Source of the DNA: Owenia fusiformis
Taxonomy: Eukaryota > Annelida > Polychaeta > Sabellida > Oweniidae
DNA length: 64,000 nucleotides
Assembly: GCA_903813345.2 (NCBI GenBank)
Contig: CAIIXF020000005.1
Location: 34,971,375 to 35,035,374, forward strand
Reading direction: 5' to 3'
Below, in pieces: positions 9,153 to 46,748 of the stretch. Each line of letters starts with the position of its first letter. Positions within the stretch are counted from its first letter, which is position 1. The position numbers were made by a program, and so were the translations under genes. The notes below the pieces were generated by a model, which ran no database searches, was not told where the DNA came from, and saw only the letters and a program-made list of their open reading frames with translations.

Positions 9153-9157
9153 AGTTT

Positions 9158-14099: not shown

Positions 14100-14689
14100 A
14101 TTGTTTGTCTACATACTAACTTTCAAACGTATAAAAACCGCGTATAATCGCCCAAACCACTGTTAGTTGGAAAAAGTAAAATTTATTGAACTATGAGTAC
14201 GTCTGTTGTGATTGTGATTACCTGCTCTGGCATTATGTTTTGCTTTTTTGATCAGCTTTTTGTAAAAAGTTAATTACCTGCCTATTCCCCTTTGTCCACC
14301 TTAAATGATGGCATAAATTCCTTTTGTAAACCGTGGACAATAGTACTACGAATGTGTAGGTGGATAAAAGAAATCCATATCATGCGAATAATGAAGTTAG
14401 TTTGGAGGAAATATTATTGACATAAAACAGATTTACAGATCGTCAAAGTGGAAGAATCCGATTTATATGAATCAACGACCGGAGCTATTTTAACCAAATG
14501 TTGCGCATATTCTTTAGAAATCAAATTGATCTTAAAGTGCGATATGCTTAAATCAAACAAATAGATGAGAGATAAATTCAAATCACTTCACCTTCGTCTA
14601 TAACACGCGAGATTATTTTAACTCGGAGTACTTGATTGGAAATGTCACCTAGACCAATTTACGACCCTATAGATTACGATTTGAACTTA
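14100..14689. other. Gene-free stretch before duplication copy A
   Basis: AT-rich sequence with no recognisable gene. It may be a more diverged leading part of duplication copy A, but I could not align it convincingly with sequence before 27,865. Confidence 0.4.
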
Positions 14690-16185
14690 AGGTTATTTTC
14701 ATACCTAACAAATTGTCTGTCACAACATCCAGACGAGATCACATTGGTAAATATCTCAGTCAAAAATAAGTGCAAAGTGCACTGGACTAATCTGTTACAA
14801 ATATAATTAGTGCATTGCATTATCTCGGTTCGTTTAATGCACGATCTGCCATTAGCAGGTTCTTAAAAATAGGTTTTATATCTTCTAGTCATTTAGTAAC
14901 GAACGGTACATTAGTCAAAGTGGGCTGGATAATTGCTTATAAAAAGTGGTGTATCGAACATCCATAGGAGGAAGTATTTATATTAGTGCCTGTTTCATGA
15001 CCGAATATAAAAATTGTCGACTACAGGGTGGGACAAGTATTGTGTGCACTTATGTATCATGATAGAGGTCGATTCTGCCACTGATGAGAAGGTTTCATTT
15101 GCAGTCTCTAAGACAATATTCATGTAATGTTATCTGTGTAGAAACATGTGCAAAAAAATATGATAATATGATAATATGACATATTCCGAAAATATGTTTA
15201 CCTGTATTTCGCTGAAATTCTTTGAAATTCTTTGAAATTCGACGGGCTGAGATTTACGAAATTCTAAATTCTAAATTGAACTTTGTCAATTCTAAGTTGA
15301 ACTTTAAAATTTAATATGGATCATCTCAATTGAACAAAAAGTAAGGAGAGTTCAAGCACCATTACGATATTGTAAGATCAAGGCAACAGCATAAGAAACG
15401 CATGTATTATGTTTAAACAATTGCAATGACCAAATATAGTATCTTGTAACATAAAGACAACATAAGATTGTGTAGCATCAAAATATTTACTAGATTGTAT
15501 TGTATTACACAGAGACAACATATGTCTGTGTTCTCTTACTATGTATACCATCATTGTATTGGAAATTAAAGTATCTTATGTTGTAATTCTTTCGTGACTG
15601 ACATGTTGATTAAGAACCCTAGTCCTACTTCGCTTGATGACAAGACGATAATTCCAAAGCCTCAATTCCTTAGAAATCCTATATAGCGCTCCTCGGTAAC
15701 GATGTATTACTTTACGGTACACAATAACCTTAAATAAAGGTGACACAGCGTCTTTATCAGGGGCGATAACTGTTCAGGATACTAAACCGTGATCAACTCT
15801 AATCCGTAGTGACATAACCATCCCTTCTGTTTTATCCCTCTAAGCTTGATTGAAGATTCCCCGTGTTACATTATATAGACAGGATTTGACTGTAAATGTG
15901 TTTTGCGAGGCATTGAGTTTTATATCTCAGATAGCTTCTTTATGACACGGTATTCTTTTTTAAAAAATCTCCTTCGGAATTGTGTGGAGTCGTACAGGAG
16001 ATTGCAAAATAAACGTACATGTGTACGTCATACAACAATGTCATACTTAAAAATGCTTCTAATACTAACTTAACCATAGGCCAAGGGAAAAAAAGTATCA
16101 AGTGCAACCTAGAAAGTCTGATATCATTTTTCCACATGTATTCGATGCGCGTTTAAGTTTTACGAAACTTGTAGCTACACCAGGA

Positions 16186-16395
16186 TAACCCCCCTATCAC
16201 ACCAAACTCGTTCTTACCCGTTCTTGCCAGTCCTACGAAAACGTCGTAAAACGGGCTCAATCTGGCTGTGGTCGGGAAATATGTCTGAAACTGAATTAGC
16301 TTCTTCGTTCTTAAACAGTCTTCAATACGTCCATCTCGTTCGCAGTTCGTTCAGGTCGCACCACGTGCAGTAAAACGTGTCTAATCTGAACGCCC
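16186..16395 (+). mobile_element. Truncated copy of the CCCCCCTATCACACC MITE
   Basis: It begins after ATAA with cccccctatcacaccaaact and matches about the first 200 bp of the full element at 45,596-46,403 (cgttcttacccgttcttgcc, tcaatctggctgtggtcggg, gcagttcgttcaggtcgcac). The match then stops near 16,395, so the right part and right terminus are missing. Confidence 0.85.
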
Positions 16396-19300
16396 CATCG
16401 TCGGTTCCCAGTTCCCACGCTCAATCACTATGTTAGGTCCGAAGCTTGATGAAGCATCTTGGAACGCCCTGGGACCAGCCAAAGCGTTCAGATTATTGAC
16501 GGTTGTTCACATTTCGAGGTTTTGATTGCAGATTAATAGAAAACGGGGCATACTGTTTGTACTATACTACTTGGGTATGACGTAGGCTTATACTCTACTA
16601 CATTCACGGTAAGATTTTACTTGTTTGCTGTTACGCTGGGGTTAGCAGCAAGTAGCATTTTCCTGTATCGGATGCCTTTGTCAACGTTAATCAAAGTCCA
16701 TTCAGTAATCAAATGAACACACTGCTAAGTGAGTATAAACAGCTAAATGTTCAATTTCAATTCAATTTACTTAATGTTGACGATTATGTGATGTCTATGA
16801 ACATGCACAAATGAGGAGGAACACGAAACGGTGACTCCATTATGGATACGAAAAAGGTCGTACCACAAAAAAATCCCATATAGTTCCCATTGCAGGCTAA
16901 AAGAATTACATATTAACGATTTAGGATTTTTGTCCATTTTGGCCATTTTACTGCCTATATTATTTACATACAAATGGTAAATAAGCTTGATAATAATGTG
17001 TTCTACAGTTTTAAGCATGTTTTCGAGAAACTAGTCACTACAATCCAACATGGTGTTGTTCGACCGGAACACTTTTGGGTCTAGACGATCGACCTAAAAA
17101 CATTTTGAAATATTGTCAAGTCTAGTATATCCTGGAACGGAAGTAAATTAGAAAGTGGTCTATACAAATTGGTAATAAAACGTGACGCCGATTAGATCAA
17201 TCAGCGTGACGTTCGCAAGTCCCTAAGACAATAAGCCTGTTAATTGTGATCTTGTAATAGATACACATTTGTGCAAATTGAAAGGCTGCTAAATCGACCA
17301 CATTGGGAGGGTTATCCATCACAAACGTCCATATCGTACAAAACCTGTTAAAGTCATTGTATGATTATATGTAGTCATTTTTCAAATGGGTAAGTTACAT
17401 TCCCGTTACATTGTCTGATTGCCATTGCATCATTTAGACGAGTTTCGCATTGAAATGGCATTCTAGGTAAATAGTCGTATCCCAATGGCTAGGCAATTAA
17501 GTTGCACTTTCCGTGGCGTGCAGAATGGTCAAATGGACTATTTATCACAATGATTGAAGACCGTGTACTTACTGATAACACGGAAAGGGTTATTTATCTA
17601 TCGTCTCCTTAGAGGACAATGAGTGATCTCGGTAATTAGCTTAGACCTTTTATATATCCAGGCTTACATTGTGATGTCATGCGAAAATCATCCAAAGTTC
17701 GTCACACAAAGGCTAATTCTAATTAATAAACTAGACGGGCCCAGGTATCATTAGTAGCGCGTTTCATCAATCGAAGACGTTAAATAGTGAAGCGCCTTTC
17801 GGGTTATCCATCACACTGACGGAGATGGGAAAACGACTAAGATGCTATCGTAGAAATATACTGACTAGTGGTTTGTTAATTAAATCCTCAGCCGTATATA
17901 CTTGGACGCGTTCAATAAGGTGTTCATTTTCAAGCTATGGTGTATCTAATCTATGGAGAGAAAAAAAGTAATTTAGATATGGAAGTTATTAGCTTAAATA
18001 GCCGGAATCTGCTTTGTTTAGACTATAGCATATTTGGATGCGTTAATGGGTTAACGATATGACATTGAAGACGCTCTGGATCTACTGAAAAGAGACATCG
18101 ATCGGGAATAGGTATGTATTAAACCCAAAGAAATATTCCTTATTTCACTTCATGGATATACGATTACTATGATAGAACTGATAGACATCAGATTTTCTCC
18201 AGACTGCATATTTTGCTGAACTTATATCATCCAAAGAAAGGTCGCGCATGATGTATCTACTTGAACTTTACATTTATTTCTTCAATAAATCATTTAATCC
18301 AAAATGTATTTTTTCAATTTGTTACTTTCAGACATTGTATTAAACCGAAATTAAAAGGAAGGTCTTTCATCCCTTGGGGGATTGCTTGTTCCTCTTTTGT
18401 AGTTGCTTGGAACCGGTCCTCTTTAATATAGAAAGTGTTGATTTAATGGAAGCCGCCGTTATAATTGCTTTCTCTAATTTAAAAACAAACTGAATTGTTG
18501 AGATCTTAATTTAGATGCAGAAGGTAAATACTAGAAGATGCCAGAGGGAAGGTAAGACAAGAATATCGTGTTTATTTGAATTTGTGTAGGATATAAATAT
18601 TTTCATATTCTATAAAGCTTTGTTTGCGAAAGTTGATTTCTTCACACATTTATTAGTGTAATTAGTAAATTACGTTATCAACACATGTCATATAATGTGT
18701 AATGTAAATGTTCTTTACATATAATTTACGACGATGTGTTTATTCATTAATGAAATTTAATGATGCAAAACTCGAAATCCGTAACTGGGTCAAAAGGAGG
18801 AACGTTCTTCTTAATATTCTTTTATTTATATCGTAAATTAGGTTTCAATGGTGATTTCTAGATATCTAATTAAAATAGGGCAATTATGCAAAAATATTCA
18901 AACGTCTTTTAATCATATCGCCTGGTATTTGTTATTTGCCCTTTTTATTAAAAAGGTTCATTTTAATTAAAACGGTGATAAATGGGAAAATGAGCATTTC
19001 AAGGTAAAAAGCTCAGGTGTAACGAGCAGCATTTAAAGGAATATATTTAGTTAATAGATTGGGATTAAGTGGTGATGAAATGTCAGACGTTCAAGTAACG
19101 CAGTCAGAAATCGTACCCTGGGGTAAAGAATGTGAAGTGTCTCGAGATTACAAGTCTACTACCATAATTTCCGCTTAACACTTCTTTGGGCCAAGTGGCG
19201 ACGCAGTTATTGACATTCGGCCTATTGTTCGTAATTATATGAACAAAGCTTTAAGTATAAAGTGAAAGCCCAAATAAAACGAGAAGGAGTTCATATATCA

Positions 19301-20399
19301 CTCATTCTGATGGACGTTCAAATGCAAGAGATAATATAACAGACCCATTCGGATCGGTTCCACTTGGCCCTCTGACAGACATATGAATGGATTATCTAGT
19401 ACTCTAAGCAATGCCTGGCTTGAATGGTGAGTATTGTTCACAAATAAGATGAGTATGACGATACATGTGAATCTTCCAAAATTCTCCGTCCATAGTTCTA
19501 ATGCTAATATAAATTAAACACTGCATTATGATTCCCTTCATTGAAATGACATAAGACGTTAAGACAAGTTTATTCAGACTGGTTCAAGTGAGATGAATTA
19601 CGATTGATTAATATTATCAGGACTCCATCAAAGGAACTCATCCGGATTATTTATCATGAGACATGGATAATCCGCAATGGAGCAGTCTAAATGAACCAAT
19701 ATCGATATCTTCAAACATCATAAAGAAACCCATTTTCAAACCAAAAACTATACAGACACTGTATCAGTCACATTATTTCTGAATTCTGGATATGTTCAAA
19801 AATCTTCGTACCATAGCATTAATTTCTAAATGACGTTTGTTGATGTTAAATGTTGAAAATAGAATCTAGAAAATCCGAGTTCCTTTACGCTTTGCTTCTG
19901 GCAACCCTATCAATTGCAATCAACTAAGCCGACAGAGATGAATTTAAAAAGTCAGTAATTCCCGTTGCGGGAGTAATAACACATTGGGAAACGGATGTCG
20001 CAACATAAGTAGTCCTGCAATATGTACAGCTTTTTAGTATATAACTAGATGTAAACACGAGATATAAGCTCATTTATGGATAGCATTCCCATTACATTAA
20101 GTAATCATCATATACGGGAAGATTAATCGCAGCCATACCGAAATATCAAAAACTTCATTCGCACACTCCGGGAAATAAATCTGTATAAAAATGTTTTTAC
20201 CTAAACCATCTATCATTTGAATTTTCGATTTGTAGAAATGTTAACGAGTCTATCTAATTGACATTAAACTATTTCTCAGCCGTCAGGGTTGTCCCGGTAT
20301 CAACATCATTATGTCGAAAACGATCCTATTTACACTTATCACCTGTGAAGTTCAAACCCGACTCCTCATTGGATAGTGGAGACTGAAGTTGTATCCTGT

Positions 20400-22340
20400 T
20401 TATGTTTGATTTTTCATTTATCTTGGATAACCAATATATCAATTGTTGATTTTTTCACTTAATTACCATTATGGATTTCCAACTAAATATGATGTCTTAA
20501 ATTTTCTACTTATTGCCGCCTTGAATTACCAACATATCATATGAAGTCTGATTTCTTTTCACTTATTCACAATCATGGATTACCAACATATGGAGTTTGA
20601 ATTTTTCACTTAATTATAATCTTGAATCACCAATATGTGAGGTTTGAATTCTTTCACTTAATTACTATCTTGAATTACCAATATATGAAGTCTGAATTTT
20701 TCACTTAATTGCAATCGTGGATTACCAACATATAACGTTTGAATTCTTTCACTTAATTGCCATCTTATTACCAACATATTAAGTTTGAACTTTTCACTTA
20801 ATTACTATCTTGAATTACCAACATATGAGGTTTGAATTCTTTCACTTAATTACCATCTTATTACCAATATATGAAGTTTGAATTCTTTCACTTAATTACC
20901 ATCTTATTACCAATATATGAAGTTTGAATTTTTTCACTTAATTACTATCTTGAATTACCAATATATGAAGTCTGAATTTTTCACTTAATTACTATCTTGA
21001 ATTACCAACATATAACGTTTGAATTCTTTCACTTAATTACCATCTTATTACCAATATATGAAGTTTGAATTTTTCACTTAATTACAATCTTGAATTACCA
21101 ACATATAACGTTTGCATTCTTTCACTTAATTACCATTTTATTACTAACATATGAAGTTTGAATTTTTTCACTTAATTACTATCTTGAATTACCAATATAT
21201 GAAGTCTGAATTTTTCACTTAATTACTATCTTGAATTACCAACATATAACGTTTGAATTCTTTCACTTAATTACCCTCTTATTACCAATATATGAAGTCT
21301 GAATTTTTCACTTAATTACAATCTTGAATTACCAACATACAAGGGCCGATCAAAAAGTTTCTTACCGTTGGCTCTAGATTTTATAATAAGAGGAGTTGGA
21401 TGCTCAAACTTTTACATAAGACAGGGTAGTAAGTTTGCTTGAGACTGTGTGAGTTTTATTGAAATTGGTTCATTGTTAGTGACACAGAGTCAATACATAT
21501 TTTCAATGATTGAATTAGGTGGAGCAGCATTTTTTATAAAAAATTGTGCTAAGTTGCAGTTTTGGAAATTTTTAACACCAAGTAGTGTCATCTGTCAACA
21601 GACTGTAGTTTAATCACGTTTAGTTAGTTTTTCTGCTAATATTCATTCGCATTCAAAATATTCAACCCCAGTTGCAATGCACTTCCTATATCTGTCTACT
21701 CAATCCAAAAACACATGTTAAAGGCCTTCGTATGTGAGGTTTGAAACGATGTCGGTAAATTTCCAGAACAACAACTCAGCAGATATTTCATATATAACGC
21801 TGCTCCACCTAACTTTGTCATTGAAAATATGAATTGACTCTGTGTCACTACCAATAAACCAATTTATATGAAACTTGTACAGTTTCAAGCAAACTAACTA
21901 TCCTGTCTCATGTTAAAGTTTGAGCTTCCAACTCCTCTTATTATAAAATTGAGAGCCAACGGTAAGAAACTTTTTGATCGGCCCTTGTATAACGTTTGAA
22001 TTCTTTCACTTAATTGCCATCTTATTACCAATATATGAAGTCTAAATTTTTCACTTAATTACTATCTTGAATTACCAACATATAACGTTTGAATTCTTTC
22101 ACTTAATTGCCATCTTATTACCAATATATGAAGTCTGAATTTTTCACTTAATTACTATCTTGAATAACCAACATATGAGATTTGAATTATTTCACTTAAT
22201 TACCATCTTATTACCAACATATGAAGTTTACATTTTTGACTTAATTGATATCTTGAATTACCAATATATGAAGTTTGAATTGTTCACTTAATTGCAATCG
22301 TGGATTACCAACATATAACGTTTGAATTCTTTCAGTTGAT
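20400..22340. repeat. Satellite array, alternating 46/47-bp units
   Basis: There are roughly 28 copies of two related units. One contains accaatatatgaagtctgaa, then tttttcacttaattactatc. The other contains accaacatataacgtttgaa, then ttctttcacttaattaccat. The two types alternate over much of the array, giving a ~93-bp higher-order repeat. The array is absent from the equivalent place in duplication copy B, so it expanded after the duplication. A mariner-type MITE (21,340-21,987) splits it. Confidence 0.92.
21340..21987. mobile_element. Tc1/mariner-type MITE with TA duplication
   Basis: This is a 648-bp insertion in the satellite. The left end is CAAGGGCCGATCAAAAAGTT and the right end is its inverse. 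The terminal inverted repeats extend about 150-200 bp (cttaccgttggctct, ttataataagaggagttgga, gacacagagtcaa, ggtggagcagc). Neighbouring satellite units read accaacatataacg uninterrupted; here they read accaacaTA, element, TAtaacg, so the TA was duplicated on insertion. TA duplication and ends of this kind are typical of the Tc1/mariner superfamily. No transposase frame is present, so it is non-autonomous. Confidence 0.93.
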
Positions 22341-22881
22341 TACCATATTGATTTACAAAGATATGAAGATTGAAAATCAAACTGGCAAGCGATTATGCTT
22401 AATTTCACTACTTCTTAATTTGATGAATTTGACGATTTCTAAAATTGCCAAACATATTAACAGGCTTTCAAAACATTTTGGAGATGAGTGTAAATATACA
22501 AGATTGCAATTAAATCTTTTTACTTAGTAGATTCTTTAATAAGAAGATTGTTCAGTAGTTGATAAATGATATAGACATACATGTACCTTCAGTAGTTGAG
22601 CAAACTAGCTGCTGATTAAACGTTATTATAATATAATGATATTAAATATGATATGTGATCTCGAGTTGATATGCTTTTCATCTGTATATATTACATAATC
22701 ATATTGGATCTGCAAAATTACACCATATAGTTTTCTAAAGAAATTCAGGTTTAATTGTTTCATGACGTGTATCATGCGTAACAGCTACAGTGTACGAATT
22801 GTCTAACTTTTTGAAAATAAGATGTCGGTAAACCACTGAATTCCGTGCATACTGAATTCTATTAACACATTTGGGTAACTG

Positions 22882-23362
22882 CCACAATAAAGTAGCTTTT
22901 TCAAATAGCTTTCATGACTGTCATGTAATAGTGACTTTTCCAAAATAGCTTTCATAACTGTTATGTAATAGTGACTTTTCCAAAATAGCTTTCATAACTG
23001 TCATGTAATAGTGACTTTCCAAAATAGCTTTCATAACTGTCATGTAATAGTGACTTTTCCAAAATAGCTTTCATAACTGCCATGTAATAGTGACTTTTTC
23101 AAAATAGCTTTCATAACTGTCATGTAATAGTGACTTTTCCAAAATAGCTTTCATAACTGTCATGTAATAGTGACTTTTCCAAAATAGCTTTCATAACTGT
23201 CATATAATAGTGACTTTTCCAAAATAGCTTTCATAACTGTCATGTAATAGTGACTTTTTCAAAATAGCTTTCATAACTGTCATAATATAGTGACTTTTTC
23301 AAAATAGCTTTAATAACTGCGATTATATAGTGACTTTTCACAATAGCTTTTATAACTGTCAT
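22882..23362. repeat. 40-bp tandem repeat
   Basis: About eleven to twelve copies of a 40-bp unit made of taatagtgacttttccaaaa and tagctttcataactgtcatg (for example unit starts at 22,921 and 22,961). Homogeneous in the middle and decayed at both ends. Located in copy A only. Confidence 0.93.
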
Positions 23363-25825
23363 TAGTTAATCAAGGGAAAGTGTTCAAAAAAAGTTTTAGG
23401 TTTGTGAATAATTAGCGTGTGGGGTACTGTAATGTGACTTTTTTAAAATAGCTCTAATTCTATCAAAGACTTTGTCGTGTAATATCAATTTATCCCGGTG
23501 ATCCTGGTGTGTTAAGTATGAAGTGCATTTTTCTTGTTGTAAGTTTATATCATCCAGTGTATTTACAGATTCATATGAACATCTGAAAGCCTTAATAGTA
23601 ATTCAATCCTATCCGAACTTACAATGACAATTGTAACCATTCGTATTCGTTACTCTCTGTATCAACATTACTAATTGGCTATAGATTAGCATAACGTGAA
23701 AATCGAAATGGAAGATTTTCTTTGCGAAACATTGGCTTTAGATAATGAAACTAAATCTCAGAAAAACACCAGTTAATTTATACTTCCCGGTGAAAGAAAT
23801 GAGAGCATCATCTTGACAGAATTGATTGAACGTTTCTGATTAAAACGGCCCAAAGGCTACAAACCAATATTTACTTGCGAATGCTATAATCAAAATACCA
23901 ATATAACTTAAATGAACTGTTTTATCAAAAATTTCCAGACCGTCTTATGGTAAATACAAGTTCTAAGAATATGCTTTGGTTTCTATTCATTTTCCGTTGG
24001 GATTAGAGGCGCTTGGGAGAATTGTAAGTAATTACAACGCCAAATAGATTGTTGGACATTGATAAATCGAACAGGTGAGTAATTGTCCAAAAGTAACGAT
24101 ATTGCTTCATATCGACTGATTTGGTTCTACATTGGAATTGAATATTTATATTGTCACTGCAACCACAGTTTTTTATCTATTCTATTTTGACAAGACAAAT
24201 GAAGATGACAAGTGTATTTCGAGCAGAGAAAAGTAAATCAAGATTCACGGCCACAACGTATTTAAATTGAAGAGCTCCTCTCAACGAGAGGATTGAGAAT
24301 ATCTTAGTTTTGTCATCATCCAGACTACATGACTGTATACAACATATAACTGGCCTCATACAGGGTCAATAAATATCCATCCATACAGGTATAATGGAAA
24401 CACAATTGCAAAATAAGAAAATTCTAAAAAGTATAGAAATAGTTAAAAACGCATTTAGACGAAAAACATTGAAAGTAAAGTGAAACCCGTAGAGAAACAA
24501 CCCCCAAACATTTCAGTCATTCTGTAGTCACCACACTATACGTGGAAAAATAAACATTTTCATAAAATATATCTTGTTAGATGTATAGCCCTGACCTCTG
24601 CAACAAAAATATTATTTCTAGATTGGAAATTTTATATTTTGAGTTTGTCCTTGCCTCTCTGATAAGCTGGAACACTCCACTCCATGCATATGCAGGGGTT
24701 GAATTGATATTTCACTACATCTTTCATGTTATTTTGTTCAATATTAATGAAAGGGTCAATTGTTTTTAAGTTTCATTTCTGTGGGAAATATCTCACTTAC
24801 AAGATCTTTAAATTCAGGGTTATCTTAACTTACAAAATCGTATTTATATGATGCAGTCGTTTGGAATCGTAGATTTACTCACGTCTGGGTATTAACTGTT
24901 ATACCAATCAAAAGTGAACATATGCGCGTCGATGTTTCAAAGAAATATCAATGGGAAACATCATTGGGTATGTGGGAGGGCTCTTGGAGTTCCCTAGTGC
25001 AGTAATATCAATTCAAATTCTGAAGAAATTCAGAATTTAAACACATTGAAATCATGCCGCCACATTTACGTCAACAGGGAAAATTCTGACGGCTAAATTC
25101 ATCAAGGTCAGGTGACACAGTGTCATTCGTACAATGTACGTATGTTATATAGGACACATGGGAGGGGACTGTTTTTGGACCTGACTTGAAGTTGATCTCT
25201 TCAATTTTCATGTATTTCTGGTCAGAAATGTATGTAAGACACCATACTTCCCAATGAGACTTTTTCAACTAATAGGTCCAGTTAATGTTTAATGGTTGAA
25301 TGATCCTATGCCATTTTATAAGGCAATCTGAAAGCATTTGATTATTGGGCTATGCTTTGTTATGTACATGTTGGCTCGACTATTCCTTTTTAGAGGTTTT
25401 GTAATTCTGCAATTTTCTCCAGATCTGATGACCTTATGATGATCAATTTTCCAACTGCATAAGCGGCATTTTGCTAAGAACAATCAAAATCGGATAAATA
25501 ATAGTCTAGCTGATGCAGTCAAGTTTACAATAGTCATTCATTAATCTAAAATGCTACTTGTTAGAAACAATATTTAAGTAAAGTGGGGATACGGAAAATT
25601 CGGGGCACAAACACACCGTTGAACACAATTATGTCAACCAGTCATGTGGGATATCTAACAACAGATAAATGTTACATCAAACCATACCATTCAGAAAAAG
25701 GGTTCCGCTCTGCGAGGTGAATTGTGACGTGCATTGCCCCACTGGGAACTTCATTACGGTAACTTTTGCTTATACGACATAATTTGTTGACACATAATCA
25801 GATATGCATGTTTTCAGAAGTACAA

Positions 25826-26165
25826 AACCATTTTTTCAAAATCATCTACAAGTTCTCAACAGTTCAAATTTGACTATAGATTTGACCTTCAATGACATTC
25901 TCAAGGTCAAAAAAGATTTGACCTTCAATGACCTCCTCAAGATCAAAAGGGTATTTTTCCATCTCGCTTCAAATTGACCACTTTTTCAAAATCATCTCAA
26001 GTTCTCAGAAGTTCAAATCTGACTTTAGATTTGAAATTTCACCTTAAATAACCTTCTCATGGTCAAAAAAGTATTTTTTTTCAACTTGCTTCAAATTAAC
26101 CAATTTATTTTTTCAAAAGCATCTACAAGTTCTCAGAAATTCCAATCTGACTTAAGATTGAACAC
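25826..26165. repeat. Degenerate ~130-150-bp tandem repeat
   Basis: Two to three imperfect copies of a block that reads in order caaaatcatctacaagttct, cagaagttcaaatctgactt, agatttgaccttcaatgac, ctcaaggtcaaaa and ttgcttcaaattgacca. It lies between duplication copy A and the CAGTC element. Noncoding. Confidence 0.8.
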
Positions 26166-26221
26166 ATAATATTGTGAGCAACTAGGTGGTGACATTTTGT
26201 CATGTTAATGCCTTTTGAGTT

Positions 26222-27079
26222 CAGTCAATATGGTACAACGAAAATGGGACTTCTGCGCATGTTAAAATTTTTCGTCAAAACTCAACTTTTGTTCAAGTTG
26301 ATACGATTGTCTTTCGAACTAGAGACTTACCTCATTCGAAAGATCATAAAAGACTTTATCTATACTGAAAATCTTAGATCCAAACATAGTAGAATACGCC
26401 GTCAGTCCGCATTTGATTTTTTGAAGTGAGTTTCGTAGATAGTCAGATTTCTCCGACTGATATCGGGTTATCTCAAACTGGTTCGTTTATAAATACGAAT
26501 TTGTTTACCGTTGTAAGGCGCATGCGCAAAATTGATTTATAAACCTTTGATGGTTTTTCTCCTGCGCATGCGTGAAGTCTGATGAACACTTATGACGAAG
26601 ACCGGAGCAAACATTACTAGCTCTTGAACGAAATTCCAAGATTCAGGTCATTTCGCCGTGTTTGCTAAGCGTGTATACGTGAATGACAAGCTGTTTTGAG
26701 TAGATCGGGTACCTGTTTTAGACACAACATTGATTTAGCTTGACATTGATGTGCACATTGGCACTTTTGAGCATGTTAATACAAGTTTTTACACTCTTAG
26801 CACGAGACGGGTTTTCGAAAAATCTGTTATCTGATTCACTCGATTATCGTATGGATATGTATTTCTGCTGACATTTCAACACCACATCACATAGAATTAC
26901 GATGCAGAATGATAATAAAACACAAAACAACTACTAAATGCTACTTGTTATTTCACAGGAGGTAAAAATGCAAACTGCCTAGATTCTTTGTAAGGGTCGT
27001 CAGACATCGGATTGGCCGCCATATTTGAAATGAAAATATCACTAAATAGAGGTCTGCGCATGCCTCAACATTTCGACTG
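26222..27079. mobile_element. CAGTC...GACTG DNA element, copy 1 (4-bp target duplication)
   Basis: Nearly identical over its whole length to 50,153-51,016, which sits in an intron of the AprA-like gene. The ends are CAGTCAATATG at the left and the near-inverse CATTTCGACTG at the right. The flanks are AGTT on both sides. A 61-codon frame starting at 26,247 is identical in both copies, but so is the surrounding noncoding DNA, so it is no evidence of a protein. The 4-bp duplication is seen in some cut-and-paste groups such as Chapaev; assignment is open. Confidence 0.9.
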
Positions 27080-27864
27080 AGTTTGAAATGAAATTTTCGT
27101 AATGTAGTTCAATATGAAGAACGTTTATTCTAAATTATTCTCAATTTTGTAGCTAATTTTGCTGTATAGGTATTGAGGGCTGGTAACGACAAAATGCAGT
27201 TTTTCTAAGTGCCTAAAGATTATGGCAGTTATACATGGATAAGAGCGTGACAAAAATTTCATGAAAAATATGTACATTCATATCATTTTCTCATTTTTTC
27301 CGGGACATTTAGAAATATTAACCATTAACATAGAGTCAAGTAAAACGGCTTTTCTATTTCACCTAAAATATAAATCTAAGGTTATTTCTGTTGTCATGGT
27401 AACAGCAATAGTAAAGCTTACCCATTACCATAACAACTAAAACAACAATGTAAAGGAATAACCTCTAAAGATTATTGCAACTTATTGAATATTTTTTCTC
27501 ATCAGAAATTGGTATAATTTAAAAAGTTTCACAGTATACCATATTTGGATATCATTTTGACGGAAAGTTTTTTGAGGATTTTACATTTTTAACACTTTTT
27601 AATGCATATCCTCTTTCATTGCATGATATTACATTATGCAATCATGGTTGATGAGCTGAGTATAACATATTGATTACTTTGTGAAAAGGTACCCTTAACA
27701 TGAATAGATTGGACATACAAATATAATTTTCTACGGTCTTACGAACTTCATGGATCTGCTTGGACGGAGCTGCTCCAGAACTTCGAGCCGGTACAAAATT
27801 TTCTGACGGCCATGATCAGTTGTAGCCCGTTCATTACGGTACATATTACAGACATTAGTTAAAC
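27080..27864. other. Gene-free stretch between duplication copies
   Basis: AT-rich with no recognised exon. A weak inverted pair, gtcatggtaaca near 27,395 and taccataacaac near 27,428, could form a short hairpin. Nothing else is seen. Confidence 0.45.
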
Positions 27865-28409
27865 TTGTGCCTATTTAACAAATTGGCTGTCACGCTAGCT
27901 ATCATAACCCTGATGAAAGTAAATGTTTTGGTCAGAATTGGGTGCTATCAAGTACAGCGGCCTAATCCGTTGAAAATACAATTAGTGCATCACATTATCT
28001 TGCTTCGTTAAGTGCTGATTTGTCATTCAATCCATGATATGAAAATGAAACTTCTAATAAAGCAGTTCGTGACATACATTACTGGATATTACCTGAATTG
28101 ACATCATTATTATTTCGGAAATATGCATTTTGTGGAAACTTCACGTGGATTGAGGGTGGATTTTGTCATTCATTGGCAGGGGTCAAAAGAGGTTAGAATC
28201 ACAAGTTATAAAAAATCATTAAGTAAACTGAAGATGTTAAAATTTGGAAATATACCATGTTTTTACCCCCAACTCAACTCATTTTCTTAAGTTAAGCATC
28301 GTTGTGATTTTTATATTATGTCTGGATAAGAAAACAAATAAAACCTGGTGAAAAAATTAGTATACTTGTTCGTTTGAAACTCTAGATCTGATTCATTTTT
28401 TGCCACGCT

Positions 28410-29430
28410 GTGAATTTGCTCTTCTTGAACGAGTGGTGTTTACCTATTTGTATCTTGCCATTAGTAACAAAAGGAACGCTAAACTTTTCTTTAGGGCGAA
28501 GTTTTAATTTAAAGTGCTGGACAGGATCTAGCTCAATCAAAGTCCTCAAGTGCCTAAACTGGTTACCGCTCGAAACTAGAAGATTCCACTGCCGCATGAA
28601 CATGATGTATAGTGTCACAAATGGAAATAGTCCAAATTATATACTTGACATCTTCAGAAAGTTCCAACGTCCTGACAATAGACGCGTTCTTCGCAACAAA
28701 CCATCATATATCCTCCCCGCAAAACGTGCTATTATTAAATCAAAATCATGTGTTTACAGAAGTATAAAAGAATGGAATGATCTACCTCTGAAAATCAAAC
28801 AATCAAACACACTTGATACATTTAAACGTCAAATGGCCTCCAAATCACTACCAACTCCTATAATAGCAAGTTTTTCATTAAATCTTACTAGACATCGGGA
28901 AAAACTCTTGAACCAACTCCGATGCGACCTAGTCCTCAAAGCGCAACTACACTCACATAATTTTAACAATGTTAATTCCCCAATGTGCGCTTGCGAACTA
29001 GAATCAGAAACACTAAACCATTTTCTTTTCAGATGCCCCCTCCATGTAGATGATTTCAAGTTGCTTAATGATAAAATAACACGTGAAATTCCAATGATAA
29101 AGTTTAACTCTCTAACTCGAGCCAATAAGGCTAACACTTTACTATTTGGTCATCATCTCTGTAATAAAAATGAAAATTCTTGTATCATCAAATCATTTGC
29201 TGAATATCTAGACATAGCATTTTCTAACCGCTGAGTCATTCCTTAGAGCACCACCAACATGCTTCTAGTCGTGCGAGCCTCACTTGGCTGTATACCTTCA
29301 ACTATGTAACACCGATGTACGTCAACTCCTATATTTCTGTAAAAATGGCTCATAATGTCAAGTATACCGAGCCACTGACTTAAATACTAAATAAATAAAA
29401 TTAAAAAAAATAAAAAAAAAGAAAAAAAAA
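28410..29430 (+). mobile_element. 5'-truncated LINE, C-terminal end of the reverse-transcriptase ORF
   Basis: A 274-codon frame (28,410-29,234) ends like the ORF2 product of jockey/CR1-group non-LTR retrotransposons. From about residue 48 it has the LNWLPLETRR-type post-RT segment, then RSIKEWNDLPLKIKQ near residue 139, then a terminal Cys/His cluster CxC-x8-H-x4-C (CACELESETLNHFLFRC, near residue 195). The RT catalytic core is absent, so only the 3' end was copied. Beyond the stop lies a ~150-bp 3' tail ending in taaataaataaaatt and an A-rich run to about 29,430, as expected for target-primed insertion. The first ~40 codons are not recognisably LINE and may be flanking DNA read in frame. Not functional. 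Confidence 0.85.
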
Positions 29431-31362
29431 GTGCTGGACATGACCAATATTACTTACAATTGCTTGTTAGATTACAAACATCCTGAGATAAAATGGCATC
29501 ATCATGATAGACCACAGCCATACATTTCCCCAATTTTTCTCAATTTTCCGACACGTCACCAAAACCATACTGTGTCGTCAGCTTAACAGTCGGATGGCGG
29601 ACAGATGGAAAGCGGCATTTCACTTTTCTGTTTCACAAATCCGTTTGGCGGGATAATTTGAAATTTTCAGGAATGTTCCTTCCTATTAAAGCTACTTTGG
29701 AGGCATGCTGGATTAATTTTGACGTAGTTCTTTATTTAAGCCTTTATATACTATTTATTACTTTTTTAAAAGCTTCACAAATTCGCTAAATTAAGCGTGT
29801 AAGTGTAAATGATTGAACTTGCAACGGCATAATCGATTTGATCGCTGGTTTTGATGTTTTGGGTATGTTCCTTCGCAATTACGCTGAACTTTGTATGTAT
29901 ATTTTTCTAGCTGCATTGTGTTTTCAATACCTCTTGGGTTGTCTCCTTTAGCCATTGTACCTACAAGATGTAAACACATGGTTTAAATAATATACAGACT
30001 GACGTATTATCAATTTGCCCGTCAATACATTTTTCACAAATCTGTCACAACAGCTTTTGTAATTTTATCTTGTATGTCTTCCTTCTATATATTTAGACTA
30101 GCGACGGGAGAACCTTTGGATTTTTCCCGGCTAGAGGCTAGAATATCATAAAAGCAGATGAGCAAGTAATGTAAACAAATTGGTATTAAGGCATGGGGAC
30201 AACTAGATCAATCAAGTTAGTGCCTAAGACATTAGGGCTATTAATTGTGATCTTATTATAGAGAAAGATCGGTGTACATTGAAAGGCTGGAAAATCGACC
30301 GCAGAGGGAAAAACATTACAGATGACCACATCTGTGTCGGTATCATAACTACTAAATGATAGTATAATACATTTTAAGTTGCATCGTATGGCTATTCGTC
30401 AAGTCGTCTATCGAATTAAGGCAGTTTCCTGTTTACTGCGTTTCATATCAGAAATTTAGTTAAGGTGTGCATTGTTACAGTTCCATACTAGTTATCATGT
30501 GAGTAGACATAAATCCTAGAATGTTTCGTTTAGATGAAGTAATTATCTTATCCCCATGGCTAAACAATTTAGGATCATTATCGATGACGTATGATCAAAT
30601 GGGCTATTTACGACATTGATTTAAGAACCACGTACGCAATTGCTGATAAAAGAGAAAGGGCTATTTGTCCATCACCTTTTAAGGTCGGCCAGAGAATGAG
30701 AAATCTTAGTGATTAATTGGGATAATTTATATGTATAACTGTAAACTAATGCCATGCGCAAACAAAATACCTACCTAACAATAAGTTTGTCTATCCTAAT
30801 TCATAAACAAGAGAGGTACGCGGCCGGTAGCGGCGTTCCATGCCAGCGATCGAAGACGTAGTACTTTATTCAAACAATACGAAAGAGCGTCGCGACACTC
30901 TCACTTGGCTACCAGAAGCAAACTAGTCTTGGTCCAAGAATGCACAGTGTTCGTCTATTCATCATATTCACATTTGCAGAGATAGGGAAACATCAGAGCA
31001 ATATGATGTTATCGTAGAAATATATACTGACTTGTAAATTAAATCTTCAGACGTATGTACTAGGAAACGTTCAGTACTTAGGTGTTTATTTAATTTTCAA
31101 GCTCCGGTGGTACCTAATCAATGGAGAGAAAGGTAATTAAATTATGGAGGTTATTGCCCCATACAACCGCAATTTGCTTTGTTGAAACTGTATATTAGGA
31201 TGCATTGATGGATAGATGTTGAGACATTGAAGTTTAAGGTGACCAACTCAATAGGAAAACTTGACTTGTAAGGTAGGAACAAGTATACCGAGAGAGAGGC
31301 ATTTCATGATTCAAATCAAGGATATTATATGATTGCTCTGATAGAACTACTGAATGTATACA

Positions 31363-31600
31363 GGGATGTAGCCAGCTTTCAGTCAGTGGGGTGCGATCGC
31401 CCAAAAAATCGGTTTTCAGTCAGGGGGTGCGATCGTGGCATAAGCAACCCCAACACTTTTTGAGATTTGTTTTGAATTTTACAAAAACTGAGGCAAACTA
31501 GAAGCTTCAAATGAAAAGCATTTTAAAGATCTTTTCTTCTACATGTATCTACTGGTTGAATTTTATTGATTGTGGGGGCTACGTCTATGGTATATTTTGA
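31363..31600. mobile_element. Small insertion in copy B (gtagcc/ggctac ends)
   Basis: Copy A reads continuously from gatagaactgatagacatca into atattttg near 18,175-18,215. Copy B interrupts this with about 240 bp beginning ggatgtagccagctttcagt and ending ggggctacgtctatgg. Inside, the words tcagtcaggggg and gtgcgatcg occur twice. It is a probable small repeat; no family assigned. Confidence 0.5.
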
Positions 31601-33128
31601 TGAATGTATTAAACATCCTAAAAAAATATACTCATTGTGCATTAATTCTTGTAAGAGATCGAAAACAGTTTTTGCAATTTATCTCTATCAGACGTGGTCT
31701 TTCGACGAAATTAGGCTGAAAGTTTTTCGTCCTTAGGGATTATTTCTTTATACTATTGTCTTTTGGGCTACTTGAAACTGTCCCTCTTTAATATAGAAAG
31801 TGCTGATTTATACGTCCACTTTTGATGTATTTGGAGACTTCATTATAATTGCTTTTCCTAATCAAAGAACAGAACAAACTGTCAAGATCAAAAACTACTT
31901 TTAGAATGTAAATATAGCAAAAGTAGCCTAGAGGATAGTAAATCAAGAATGTCTTGTTTATTTGAATTGGGATTAATTCGGTAAACAATATTTTATAAAA
32001 AGCTACGAAATGTAATCATCCTGTCCAATATAATGCTGCTTATTCTAGCTACGGCATTCGTGTACCTGTGATTTGTTCGAACTACGTACAAGTGAGATAA
32101 TTGAAACATTTGGATGATTTGGATGGTACAACCATGTAGAAGGCGAAACGTGAAATTCCAAGGCATTCTTGATAAAGGTAAATCTCTTTGGGAGATCAAC
32201 GATCTTTTTGATATGATATTTCTAATCTTCAAACACTTTTTCATTCTGCGTACTGACTGCATATTTATCATGTGAAGCTATGACTTCGTTGATTAAAACG
32301 GTTGATTTCCATTAAATCATGATCAATGTGACTGAAAGTTACAATTTGAGAAGATTGGTGTATTTGATATACTTTTACATTGACCTGCTCGCAGTGTAAT
32401 TATAAACTACCTGAAGATGCGCGAAGCTCTCTTTTAAGAAGGTCGAAAGTGGAAAGAATGCAAAGGGTTCATGCGACTAAAGTATGGACTTGAATGGGAT
32501 GTTACACATAGACCCTCTCAGATCTCTTCCATTGACAAATCCGGATAACACTACACAAAACGTATCAACTTTCACTCTGAACATTGTGGGCCTTGCACAC
32601 TGTATGCGCTGCTCCAGAAATAAGAAAGTGCGCACGCATGTAGTGTTATGACGACCCTGCGAAAGCCCTCCGACAGAAAAATCGAAATATTCTTCTCCTT
32701 CAAAAATTGCTTGACACCATGCTAGGCGAGGTGATTGAAGCAATCGATCACAATTGTATGACAATATTATCATGATTCAATCAATTTTAATTATCAAGGA
32801 TATTTTTTACGTAACATGGATAATCCGCAATGGAGCAATCTAACTGAACCAATATCCATATATCCCAAAATGTTATTTAGATGAAGAAATCTGTTTCAAA
32901 CAGAAAAATACACACAAGAAAATGGAAATCTTTACACATCAGAATTAAAGTGGGGTTTGTTGATGTTAAATGTTGAAAACAAAGGCAAGAAAATCCGAGT
33001 TCCTTTACACTTTGCTTCTGGCAACCCTATCAATTGCAATCAACTAAGCCGACAGAGATGAATTTAAAAAGTCAGTGATTAACCGTTGTGGGAGTAATAA
33101 CACATTGAGAAACTAATCTTACGTCATC

Positions 33129-34017
33129 ACCCTTGGTATACGCAGCTAACGAAAATTGACCGGTACGGGTCAAAAGCTGGACCGGTACGGGTTAACGGTT
33201 TTATTTGAATTTAAAACAGCCATAACTTGCTCAATATTGACTTCCTCGTGTCTAATTTGAAATATATGATGCCTCCCGATGCTTTTAAGTACCCCAATTT
33301 TTTACAGATTTTTAAACGGACCAAAACTCTCTAAATGCGCATTTATGCTCTTTTCTCTCGAGAACGACTGTCTCATTTTCACGATAACTTTTATTTAGTA
33401 CTTCTAACATATAAGATCTATTTTTCCCCATCAAGGTATGATGTAAATGACATGCTATTTACACCTTGTGAGTTTCAATGACGCGCGTTTGATTTTATAA
33501 AAAATGCCAAATTTTGTGACAAAGAATTTCATCAGCTATTACCCCGAACCGGTCCGTCTTCTCGCTGCAAGCAGATTGCCCCGAACCGGTCCGTCTTCTC
33601 GCTGCAAGCAGGATGAAATTCTTTGTCACAAAGTTTGGCATTTTTTATAAAATCAAACGCGCGTCATTGAAACTCACAAGATGTAAATAGCATGTCATTT
33701 ACATCATACCTTGATGGGGAAAAATAGATCTTATATGTTAGAAGTACTAAATAAAAGTTATCGTGAAAATGAGACAGTCGTTCTCGAGAGAAAATAGCAT
33801 AAATGCGCATTTAGAGAGTTTTGGTCCGTTTAAAAATCTGTAAAAAATTGGGGTACTTAAAAGCATCGGGAGGCATCATATATTTCAAATTAGACACGAG
33901 GAAGTCAATATTGAGCAAGTTATGGCTGTTTTAAATTCAAATAAAACCGTTAACCCGTACCGGTCCAGCTTTTGACCCGTACCGGTCAATTTTCGTTAGC
34001 TGCGTATACCAAGGGTG
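33129..34017. mobile_element. Near-perfect 0.89-kb palindromic element
   Basis: The left arm 33,129-33,533 and right arm 33,612-34,017 are inverted copies of ~405 bp with only a handful of mismatches. The spacer (33,534-33,611) holds two direct copies, 37 bp apart, of ccccgaaccggtccgtcttc followed by tcgctgcaagcag. Ends read acccttggtatacgcagcta. GTCATC occurs just outside both ends (33,123-33,128 and 34,018-34,023), consistent with a 5-6-bp target duplication. Subterminal repeats of gaccggtacgggt occur twice per arm. It interrupts duplication copy B and is the youngest-looking element here. Confidence 0.92.
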
Positions 34018-35155
34018 GTCATCTTAAGCGCATAGAATCACAATATGAAACTAGATATAGACATACATAATAAGAAGAAGATCAATTGCAGACATTGTGA
34101 CATATCCAAAAATGTTAGTTCGTCAAATATATGATAAAAAGAGACTTCATCCTTGATATAAAAAACAGAACAACGGCCTATAACTTGAAATATCTGTTTT
34201 TTGAACCAACTGTTACGTACGTATCAAATTAGATATATTTCAAGTATTCATTATTCTATAAATTGGCGTTATTAACTATTTTTCAGCTGCCAAACTTGTG
34301 AGTAGCTACATCATTACTTTGCCCAACATATTCTCAATTAGTAGATTTTCAAATTGGAATATAATGTAGCAATGAGATGTAATGGATAAATGAGATCTGT
34401 GGATGATGTGTTAGCTGAGAAAATTAGGTCGAATGAATGTGAACCAAAATGAAATATTATACCATTGTATTAATCATATAGAAAACATGACACTTGAACT
34501 GGAGTTCTACTTCGTATGTTTGTTCCCTTCGTACAGTACCGTGCAACTTGTGATAAATTGCCCTCCAAAAGAGGACTCTCGATAAGTGGAATGTCAATGA
34601 TGAAACGGCATTATTGTTCAAACCAAGTTAATAAAAACCAAAGCTTGATAATCAATGTGTCATTGACGAATCAAGAAAGGAAAAATACATTGATGAATTA
34701 CGGATTATTTGTTCTTTATAAGTCATTTTGCAAACACTAGGCCAATATTTTATTTGTGTTTCTCGTCCTGTCGATACGTTCCATCAGGCTAAGTTTATTA
34801 ACTGTCAACTGTTTTGTAGGAATAACCAAAAAATAAATGTTTAAAAATAGTTTCATTGTTTGTTTATTCTGAAAGTGATATAACAATTTGATTTAACAGC
34901 AATAAAATAGGAAGGCTCAAAAGGTTCTAAATTCTGTTCTGCATACATAATGTCGTGAAACTTGCCACAGAGATCGACCAGTAATCATAAATGATTCTTG
35001 AAATATAGAAAGGCAATTATATTTATTCATTTCACATTTTTATAATTGACCGGTCATATGGAAGTTGATCTCGATTTTTTTCTCTGAAGGCCAAAAAGCC
35101 ATTCAAAAATCTGTTTAATGCATCGTTTTAATGCAATTGTGTAACTCGAGTTAAA

Positions 35156-35326
35156 GCCTCTGTCACATTTGCTCTACGGCGGGCGTACGACGGCCGTAGC
35201 TTCACAAAATCGATATGGAAAATCTACATCGTACTGCTTATCCCTATATGCTGCATATTTCTCTCGATTCTAGGAAGCTACGGCCGCCGTACGATATGGT
35301 TGTCAAAAATCAAATGTAACTGGGGC
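35156..35326. mobile_element. Small MITE, GCCTC..TCACATTTG family, copy 1
   Basis: 171 bp with terminal inverted repeats gcctctgtcacatttg and caaatgtaactggggc and GC-rich subterminal palindromes (cggccgtagctt, aagctacggccgccgt). Related copies are at 46,582-46,748 and 51,904-52,050. Confidence 0.85.
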
Positions 35327-37209
35327 ATAAGTAATATCATTATGGATCCATCTCAATGTCAATGTCAATAAAAATCTGTCAGAAAAAAAACTAAGCGAAA
35401 ACAATTCTTTGTCTCATCCCTCGTGGCAATATCAATTTTAGTTTGGTCTTTTTCGCAGAGAAATTAAAAATTACAACATCATATAATATATGTAACCAAA
35501 AACCCAAGATGAGATGTTGCTCCTTGGTTGTTTTGAGTATATTTCTGTAAGTCCATATTCCTGCAAGTTTTATATGGTTTCTTGAATTTTTCGGTTTGAG
35601 TCGTTTTGCTCTTTTAAATCCTGACCCACAACTGCTTAATTTGAAGTGTCTTTGATTGTTTTGTTAATCATAATGAGTTATTTTGACAAAGAGAGGTTGA
35701 AGGTGCCATAAACATGGAGTGTTGTTTTCATATAACGTTCATTGATGAGAAATATATAGCATGGCAGATATACATTGTACAGAGTTAGTATCATACATGA
35801 TCGGAAAGTTTTGATAGCCTGGTTTCGTACTCCTGAACCTGAACTTATAATGGGAAGTGTAGCCATTAGTATTCGTTACCCTCTGTATCAACATTACTAA
35901 TTGGCTACAGATTAACAAAACGTGAAATCGAAATTTTAGATAGTCTAGCAAAACACTGACCTTCTTGAGATAATGAAACTAAATCTCAGAAAAACACCGG
36001 CTAATGTGTATTACCCTGTGAAAGAAAGGAAAGCATCAACTTGAAAGGAAAGATCGAAAGTTTCTGATTAAAACAGCCCAAATGCTACAAACTAATATTT
36101 ACTTGCGATTAATTAAGGTTATTACCAAAACCGAGGAGAAAATCCTATGCTTAGGGCTGATGTAAAGATTTCATTCACCCTCAATGGGAATACTTACCCG
36201 TACCTCCAAACTGCAATTTGAACTTAGGGGCAATGCCAGTGATTTACATCATCCTGGACCCGTAGTTTGTTTGCAACTATAATCGAAATATACCAACTTG
36301 AGTATAAATGAATGCTTTATCATGAATTTTCTGACCGTTTCGGGTAATACAGAGTTTAAGTTTTAGGCTCTTCGAAATACGTAAGGCAATTTACCCAACC
36401 AAATAGATTGTTGGACATTGATAGATTGATCGGGTGAAAAATTGTTCGAAGTAACGAATTGTCTCATATTAAGTTATTAGATCTACATTGAAATTGGATA
36501 TTTTTGTCAATATGACCTAGTCTTTTATTCCCTTCAGCTAAAAAACAAAATGAAAATGACAGGTGTAAAGCAAGCGAGTAGATATACAATTAAATCACGA
36601 AGTATGATACAAATAGTCGCCCCCTGAACGTGATGTGTCAGGCTCCGATGATGTTTTTGTTACATAACACATTCATTCTGATCTAGTTACTAGGGTAGAA
36701 AACTTCCCGACAATATAATACAGTTCGCAGTAACAATACGCAATAACTTATCTAGAGTCATTAAATATCAATCTACATTTTCCATATTGAAAGACGCTTC
36801 GATTATGTGTTATGGCGAAGTGTGCGATTTTGTTTTTCACCAGAATCACGTATTTATTGAAATTGTTTTTCCACAGACGATTGAATTGATGTTGTTGACA
36901 GTTATTCCTGTTTGTGTCACATTGTCACCGTCCAATATCTCATACCAATTACCATGACGAACATGGATTATTTATATCATCCATCTTGGATTTTCAAGGT
37001 ATATGTAGTAAACGTGAAATTGTAAAAAAAAGAACGTAAAAAGTGTCCATTTATTGGGTGAACAGACTGTTTTCGACAGAGATGAGAAAAACAAACTTGC
37101 ACTGCTCGCACTTGAAATGAAATCGTCTGTTCCCGGATGAAAGAAATGAATTGATTGATAAATAAACAAACATAAATCATTACAGGTCGTATACACACAT
37201 GTCAAAGTA

Positions 37210-37530
37210 TACAAATGGTTCTATACTGTTTACTGAACTGTTGGTGATTCAGAACTTTCCATTGGCAGATAGTACTACAGGTAGTATGCCAATTGTCTTA
37301 TTACTATTCACTGATCCAGCTTATGTGCTGGTTTAGAATTTCCATTTGCCGATAAAAGTAGGCCTATGCCAATGGTCATAATGTACTGTTTACTGCATGC
37401 TCATGTTTAATTCATAACTCTCCACTGTCCGAAGTGCCATTTGCAGATTGTAGTATGCCAGTGGTCGTATGGGACTTTTTCACTGATCTCCTATGTTTCC
37501 TTTGGCCGATGATTGGCCAGTGCCTTTCCA
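37210..37530. repeat. Degenerate ~100-bp tandem repeat
   Basis: Three imperfect units share tactgtttactg, then ttccattggcagat or a variant, then tagtatgccaatggtc. Located in copy B; noncoding. Confidence 0.65.
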
Positions 37531-38800
37531 ATGGAAGGTGAAAGCGGATACACAGTACTGTATGTTGAAGATCACACAAAACAAAACCCTAATCTTACTT
37601 TTTTGGCATTGAAGTTGTTGTGTTTTTTGGATTGAAGGCAGCTAATAGGCCTTTTATTTATGTGACGTCGTTTTTCATTCATCATTAATTTGTATATGAA
37701 ACGCTCATTTCAAAGACAAACACTAATTCGGTTACTGTCTGCATTCATTTTGGGCTTAATCTCATGACTTTCTGTCATAACGCGTGCCCCGAGAGTATCT
37801 AATGCTTTAAAAATTGATGCAAGGTGTCAATGATATTAGTCTCGCGAGATCCCGATGTCCCATGTGACCTTTCGTCGAGAAATTTGAAAGTGTTCGTTTT
37901 AATGTAATTTAGGCGTGGAGGTGATTCCTCATTTTATTTGAAAGTTAGCGCTTATTTAGTAGTCCCTAAATACTATATTCATATAAATTTGAATTGGAAA
38001 TAAGAATTGGAATTACACATGGACTGTAAATGAGTTGATATCCCTGAAATGTAATTTTCTCTGTAGAAATATTTCTGAATATAAAAATAACCAAATCACC
38101 CGTTCTGGGGATATTGCCTTGGTAATATTCGGTTATATTCTTAGTTATCAACTCTTCTCGAATGTGGCTCACTTAATAAGATCGCCATCAGAAGATCAAA
38201 CGTGGAATTAGTTAAGAGTCAATGGATGGGCTAAACCTCAAAGTAATGTCTGAATCTAAATCAAGTTTATGGGTCAAGTTAGTGTGTTTATGGTTCACTG
38301 AACCCATACCATTTTATAAGGCAATCAAATCCCTCGATTAATCTCATTGATCTGGAATCATTTGATTATTAGGCTATTTTTTCTTTATTTACGAATCGGC
38401 TAGATTATTCCTGTATTTATCGAGGTTCCATAATTCTGCAATTTTCTCGAGATCTGATGAGCTTATGATGATCAATTTACCAACTGCCAAAGCGGCATTT
38501 TGCTAAGAACAATCAAAATAGGATAAATAATAGTCTAATTGATGCAGTCAAGTCGCAATTGTCATTCATTAATCTAGAGAGGATGATACTTAGATGCAAT
38601 ATTAAAGTTAAGTAACGTAAAAGCGGGATTCAGGACACGAACCCAGCGTCGAACACAATTATGTCAAGCAGGCTTGGAACCTATCCGACTGATAATAAAA
38701 GATGTGTCATTAAGAAAAGATACTCTTTCATGTCACAAACAGGATTTACGCGCTGTGAATTGTGACGAGTAGAGACTCACCTGGGATGTTACAAAATAAA

Positions 38801-45520: not shown

Positions 45521-45595
45521 TCTTTTTTGTAATAAGAAATTTCATGACTATTTTTAAAACTGCTCTAGATGGAAACTTGCAAGATTTATTTCTTA

Positions 45596-46403
45596 CCCCC
45601 CTATCACACCAAACTAGTTCTTACCCGTTCTTGCCAGTCCTACGAAAACGTCCTAAAACGGGCTCAATCTGGCTGTGGTCGGGAAATATGTCTGAAATAA
45701 TTAGCTCTTTCGTTCTTAAACAGTCTTCAATACGTCCATCTCGTTCGCAGTTCGTTCAGGTCGCACCACGTCGGTGTGCAACGTAGTAGAACGCGTCCCT
45801 TAGTCTAGAAGGTCAACATGACCTGATTACAGAACGGTATGGTCGCCATCGAACTTTGAATCGATTCAAAATTCTAAAATCACATTCCCGTCTGAGAACG
45901 TTCATAAAGTTCGTAAATAGACGTTAGAAAGTTGCAGCTACGTTCATTCCGTTCGCACACAGTTTAAGACCAGTTTTGAAGAACGCAGTGGCAACTTGTT
46001 TGGTGTGATAGCTATATTTTTGCTAACTCGTTCATCAGCAGTGTTAAATACGTTCTTAATCAGTTTAAACCCGTTTGCAATTAGTTCTACCTCGTTCTCA
46101 ACACGTCCTCGGACAGTTCAACTCGTTGTTAAAACGTCCCTAGTAGGATTGAAGTACGACGGTTCCGATCGTAGTACGTCCAGCTCGTCGTTAGTACGTT
46201 GTCACTCGTTCTAATTGTAGAACGTGACGACCACGAAAACATTTTGAGCATTGTCTAAGTTCTAGAGGACCTACCCGTTCGAGTACGTTCGATGAAGTGT
46301 GTAAATAGATCCCAAACGGTTCTTAGTAGGTCCAGTCCGTTCGTACACAGTTGAAGCCCGTTTTCGAGAACGTAGTGAGAACTAGTTTGGTGTGATAGTA
46401 GGG
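45596..46403. mobile_element. 808-bp MITE, CCCCCCTATCACACC family, complete copy
   Basis: The left end is cccccctatcacaccaaact and the right end gtttggtgtgatagtaggg, flanked by TTA on both sides (45,593-45,595 and 46,404-46,406). An extra copy of the terminus (tttggtgtgatag) occurs near 46,000-46,010, so the left ~415 bp is itself bounded by inverted ends. The interior is a run of degenerate ~10-bp words (cgttct, acgtcc, agttca). Frames at 45,544-45,786 and 45,996-46,214 are repeat-derived. TTA duplication is compatible with PIF/Harbinger, but no transposase is present. Confidence 0.92.
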
Positions 46404-46581
46404 TTATCAGATTAACTGATGTGCTTGGAATCTGAATGCTTTTACTCTATGCCTAAAGGTAGGATGGATCACTTCCAAATATTTATATGTTGAAATGGGG
46501 CCCACAACTGGCAATGGAATATCTGCAATAATCTCTGCCGTTTGTAATTAACTATTACGTAATAATGATATTAAGGTAACT

Positions 46582-46748
46582 GCCTTGGTCACATTTGATT
46601 ACCGTGCGTTGGTAGCTTCCCAAAATCGAGAGAAATAAGCAGCATAATTTATGTATTTAAGTAGCCTATGATTTAGATTTTCTGTCTCGATTTTGTAAAG
46701 CTACGGCCGCCAGACGGCCGGCCGCCATGTAACATATGTGATCGAGGC
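46582..46748. mobile_element. Small MITE, GCCTC..TCACATTTG family, copy 2
   Basis: Starts gccttggtcacatttg and ends catatgtgatcgaggc. The interior has ctacggccgccagacggccg and tctcgattttgtaaagct, as in the other copies. 167 bp, noncoding. Confidence 0.8.

Follow-up and report, generated by a model that had tools for sequence, protein, structure and literature searches.

Noncoding paralogues that have long been retained near developmental genes are known from vertebrates as duplicated conserved noncoding elements (dCNEs), and many of them are proven enhancers (PMC2781166 and work cited there). In invertebrates as in vertebrates, conserved noncoding elements (CNEs) are clustered near developmental regulators (PMC1852409, PMC5728398), and in humans segmental duplication multiplies regulatory elements, the target of which may be kept or changed (PMC13333887). 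CNEs of annelids and their relatives have so far been charted poorly, and there are few cases that allow constraint to be read from one genome. Duplicated conserved noncoding elements as such being already known, what is notable about the locus described here is the duplication of a whole cluster in tandem and its annelid setting. The window analysed comprises 64,000 bp (C5:34,971,375–35,035,374) of the 498-Mb chromosome-scale genome of Owenia fusiformis. This genome encodes haemoglobin-linker domains of the annelid type (Eryth_link_C), and its gene hits are distributed over C1–C12 and some small contigs, as fits an annelid having 12 chromosomes. All positions are relative to this window unless C5 is indicated, and noncoding units, islands and repeats are given without strand.

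Results

Self-comparison of the window using BLAST and a sensitive realignment revealed one old direct head-to-tail tandem duplication of about 11 kb that is gene-free. Copy A (14640–25751) and copy B (27815–38790) of this noncoding unit are collinear, neither flank is duplicated, and eight islands of similarity were detected in the same order and orientation in both copies. The A-to-B offset amounts to 13.0–13.4 kb apart from islands 6 and 7, where it is reduced to 12.2–12.4 kb because of private insertions. A previous reading made from the letters alone, hereafter the sequence-only reading, had described ten or more collinear blocks in this region. Realignment confirmed the collinearity and resolved eight islands, at 14.64–25.75 kb versus 27.8–38.8 kb; the higher number is about right if partial blocks between the islands are counted as well.

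Island 1 (A 14650–14853, B 27823–28027) displayed 62% identity over ungapped columns with an alignment score of z 27, followed by island 2 (A 17141–17308, B 30152–30309) with 66–72% identity (z 25), island 3 (A 17838–18070, B 31002–31232) with 73–75% (z 39), and island 4 (A 18278–18619, B 31635–32004) with 68% (z 23). Island 5 (A 19600–20008, B 32750–33129), with 78% identity overall, harbors the strongest core of the whole unit (about 19,835–19,987 in copy A and 32,955–33,108 in copy B), which contains an identical run of 67 bases and has a mean column identity of 94% over 138 columns. For island 6 (A 23499–23903, B 35709–36130), identity was 83% over the core at 23615–23880 (z 47), including identical runs of 31 and 27 bases. 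Island 7 (A 24020–24240, B 36370–36600) revealed 70–75% identity (z 27) and a run of 25 bases, and island 8 (A 25255–25751, B 38251–38790) 76% identity (z 73) and a run of 30.

Altogether, 1763 of 2405 ungapped columns were identical in the eight realigned islands (73%), and transitions and transversions were about equal in number. While the alignment scores of the islands ranged from z = 23 to 73 against shuffled sequence, the DNA immediately flanking both ends of the unit (z about -0.8) and the inter-island segments 1–2, 5–6, and 7–8 (z -0.8 to 1.7) did not rise above shuffle level. Shorter segments adjoining the islands retained some residual similarity (z 3–6, and z 23 for segment 2–3), and therefore the edges of the islands are soft. 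Identical runs of at least 20 bases, the presence of which had been pointed out beforehand, were found ten times, compared to 1.2 expected from pooled columns and 2.2 after shuffling within islands, and the 67-base run was reached in none of 2000 shuffles. According to a run-length test against shuffles, mismatches are clustered inside the islands, too. In these identical runs, TAAT cores occurred at about twice the background, a weak excess with P 0.02 uncorrected for the 21 motifs considered. Divergence along the duplicate is thus not uniform, with islands retained amid a background that has become unalignable, just as the sequence-only reading had it, and this patchy retention lends good support to its suggestion of constrained noncoding DNA. 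From the two paralogous copies in one genome we infer selective constraint on the islands, and the retention at eight separate places, with the background unalignable, argues for constrained cis-regulatory DNA.

Private insertions, likewise described beforehand, were identified in both copies. Copy A carries a satellite block of 46/93-bp units with an inner inverted repeat (20404–22374), a 40-bp satellite (22876–23362), and a transposon fragment (16186–16366), whose identity of 92–97% to dispersed relatives indicates an age well below that of the duplication. In copy B, a 280-aa reading frame on the plus strand (28392–29234) weakly resembles the end of a reverse transcriptase (below cut-off with Pfam zf-RVT, E 0.026), and 35,152–35,281 is occupied by a repeat. 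Regarding its structure, the region 20404–22374 consists of two 46/93-bp satellite blocks around an inverted repeat of about 235 bp (21337–21571 and 21757–21990), which is reminiscent of a foldback element whose arms consist of satellite. A foldback-like element was also observed at 45595–49504, with inverted arms of about 810 bp that are 92% alike and with relatives at 87.6–89.2 kb and in the 16186 fragment of copy A. Further repeats comprise a dispersed one at the downstream edge of copy A (25827–26159; relatives at -18.4 and -6.8 kb), an inverted pair of about 506 bp with 90% identity (6315–6820 and 8648–9153), and a 34-bp tandem repeat of 11 copies, in which several plus-strand frames are open (5808–6180).

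A search across the whole 498-Mb genome located islands 2–8 at two places only, and profile searches within 198 kb around the locus did not find a third copy of any island. Exact scans for the core of island 5 in viral and prokaryote collections gave no hit. The two units represent the only ancient collinear noncoding pair in the 198 kb, where the other direct similarities, in our reading, resemble dispersed elements or satellites. Membership in a dispersed repeat family, which the sequence-only reading had named as a refutation, was not found, and a dispersed repeat or transposable element was rejected because islands 2–8 were located at exactly two places in the genome, although strongly diverged third copies may exist outside the 198 kb.

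With respect to coding content, no reading frame is common to both copies, in agreement with the earlier view. The long islands contain stop codons in all frames, 42 of the 56 gaps in the realigned islands are not a multiple of 3, the mismatch phase is flat, and the synonymous share in 93 candidate stretches was 25% versus 22% expected. A Pfam search in six frames of islands 2–8 revealed nothing above cut-off. A coding or pseudogene origin was rejected, as Pfam, the frame and synonymous tests, and tblastn of short frames all gave no support.

Searches for RNA genes yielded no Rfam match at the gathering score, and thus no known structured RNA family, and ARAGORN detected no tRNA. The only sub-threshold Rfam match, Xist exon 1 (E 0.5), is located between islands and was dismissed as chance. 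Splice-site prediction on either strand identified no donor or acceptor above threshold in both copies, and consensus folding led to z-scores around zero (lowest -2.3 in 16 tests) with no consistent structure signal.

The sole recognised non-transposon gene from about -49 kb to 63 kb encodes an alpha-2-adrenergic-like receptor (43368–45023, plus strand; single exon, 551 aa), a candidate target 4.6–28.7 kb downstream of the islands. Human alpha-2A adrenergic receptor was its best match among solved structures (E 5e-91), and its next best match within the genome was 34% identical. From annelids, alpha-2 receptors that norepinephrine activates have been described (PMC5282848). A splice acceptor is situated about 200 bases 5' of the ATG, and therefore 5' exons probably exist further upstream, possibly inside or beyond the duplicated unit. 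C5 holds most of the best aminergic-receptor matches to this receptor, which suggests an old linkage group. From 63,146 onward, exons of an SRCR-domain gene were observed, broken by a reverse-transcriptase-like frame at 63689–64750.

Outside the window, 84–108 kb upstream of the islands, we identified a Tlx/clawless homeobox gene with three exons on the plus strand (-73.9 to -69.4 kb, C5:34,897,500–34,902,000). Its homeodomain was similar to chain 3a01_A (1e-27) and TLX2 (2e-22); the former, labelled in its record as a homeodomain-containing protein, we take to be Drosophila clawless. In the flanking exons, we recognised by eye an Eh1-like motif (FGISAILG) as well as a TLX-like tail. The region between Tlx and the islands comprises a large reading frame at -56.9 to -54.0 kb, for which no family was recognised, a receptor of the rhodopsin family at -50.5 to -49.4 kb, and remnants of Mutator transposons. 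Within about 500 kb, no HLH, HMG-box, or nuclear-receptor genes were found. An NK-class homeodomain exon, presumably NK7-like, is located about 350 kb upstream of Tlx (C5:34,552,942) and is possibly a remainder of NK-gene linkage. About 8% of positions on C5 are expected to have a homeobox gene within 86 kb, and the proximity of Tlx, taken by itself, is therefore suggestive and not strong.

Discussion

As the best explanation, to which we assign a probability of about 0.68, we propose that a cis-regulatory cluster underwent an ancient duplication in tandem and that its two copies, as putative paired enhancers, would both still be constrained. According to this model, an 11-kb gene-free block with a cluster of cis-regulatory elements would have been duplicated head to tail long ago. 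The neutral parts of both copies would have decayed past alignability, and transposons and satellites would have inserted into each copy independently. Eight elements would have been retained in order in both copies because each may still bind transcription factors, so that the copies could act as a paired enhancer cluster, partly redundant or diverged. Both the enhancer activity of the islands and their target gene are what we infer here.

Besides paired enhancers, the sequence-only reading had put forward a duplicated noncoding RNA gene. If the islands belonged to a long noncoding RNA gene duplicated in tandem, as its exons or structured parts, their sizes would fit, since 170–550 bp across 11 kb resemble exons, and the start of island 4 is close to acceptor-like motifs (TTTCAG in copy A, CTATCAG in copy B). 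However, neither Rfam nor splice sites passing in both copies nor folding, which was unremarkable, provided positive evidence, and we keep such a gene as an unlikely rival. Local gene conversion between the tandem copies might also keep patches alike without selection. In favour of this, the two copies are arranged as direct repeats at a distance of 13 kb, and the 67-base identical run of island 5 adjoins unalignable DNA, but recent conversion predicts near-identical tracts, while identity is graded from 62 to 83% with scattered mismatches and indels, and eight separate tracts would be required. As a cause of all islands gene conversion is quite improbable, though the near-identical core of island 5 could in part be a conversion tract.

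The same island contains a 31-codon plus-strand frame that is closed by a stop codon in either copy (TAA in one, TGA in the other) and whose last 29 residues are identical, the sole change there being synonymous. Yet at 98% DNA identity any frame appears conserved, the conservation extends past this frame on both sides, no protein match was obtained for it, and the islands overall show no codon signal. It is thus very unlikely that the islands are what is left of a protein-coding gene duplicated in tandem, or that they are tiny coding exons such as this frame. Finally, false haplotype duplications are known from assemblies of heterozygous invertebrates, and this counts for an assembly artefact in which two haplotypes were joined end to end. 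Given a divergence of 27% in the best-kept parts with the rest unalignable, which is far above allelic difference, as well as insertions private to each copy and unduplicated flanks of the unit, an artefact of this kind is unlikely in the extreme.

Returning to a duplicated enhancer cluster, its target had been sought in the amine receptor downstream. This receptor is indeed the nearest recognisable non-transposon gene, but Tlx, about 84 kb upstream, is an equally good or better candidate. We leave the target open between these two genes and slightly favour Tlx. That Tlx is the target, with the receptor as a bystander, seems to us not quite an even chance, and the receptor as the target is a serious possibility below that; the remainder is shared by another gene or both. 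A more specific version, namely a Tlx block in which an eight-element enhancer cluster was tandemly duplicated, both copies were kept over a very long time, and the receptor was co-regulated or held there, is rather unlikely; it would imply that Tlx and adrenergic receptor genes have been connected in their regulation since early times. In humans, TLX1 is located on chromosome 10q together with ADRA2A, and TLX2 on chromosome 2 together with ADRA2B, a distribution that would be consistent with an old linkage between both families. Should Tlx be the target and the adrenergic receptor its neighbour, a possible ancient regulatory linkage of Tlx and adrenergic receptors would become testable. More generally, a complete enhancer cluster kept twice in tandem would, if true, serve as a natural experiment in what preserves enhancers, be it redundancy, dosage, or division of labour.

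Compared to known systems, the islands are similar to the dCNEs of vertebrates in being two similar noncoding, non-repeat copies in one genome. While the vertebrate elements are found beside paralogous genes after large-scale duplication, those described here belong to one locus with no gene co-duplicated, they were duplicated in tandem as an entire cluster, and their conservation is read from paralogues in one genome. With invertebrate CNEs and genomic regulatory blocks they share their location in gene-poor DNA near a homeobox gene, as Tlx is within reach and other, unrelated genes lie between it and the islands. Genomic regulatory blocks are defined by between-species alignment, however, whereas here one genome was used and Tlx is a putative target. 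Shadow enhancers are defined by overlapping activity and usually have no common sequence. The pair described here resembles them in consisting of two elements of related content near one gene, but the islands of copies A and B share sequence, and the pair is known from sequence alone. Segmentally duplicated regulatory elements in humans, in turn, are defined by similarity and measured activity (PMC13333887), while those of this locus were recognised from their sequence, and of the duplicated unit the islands alone have survived.
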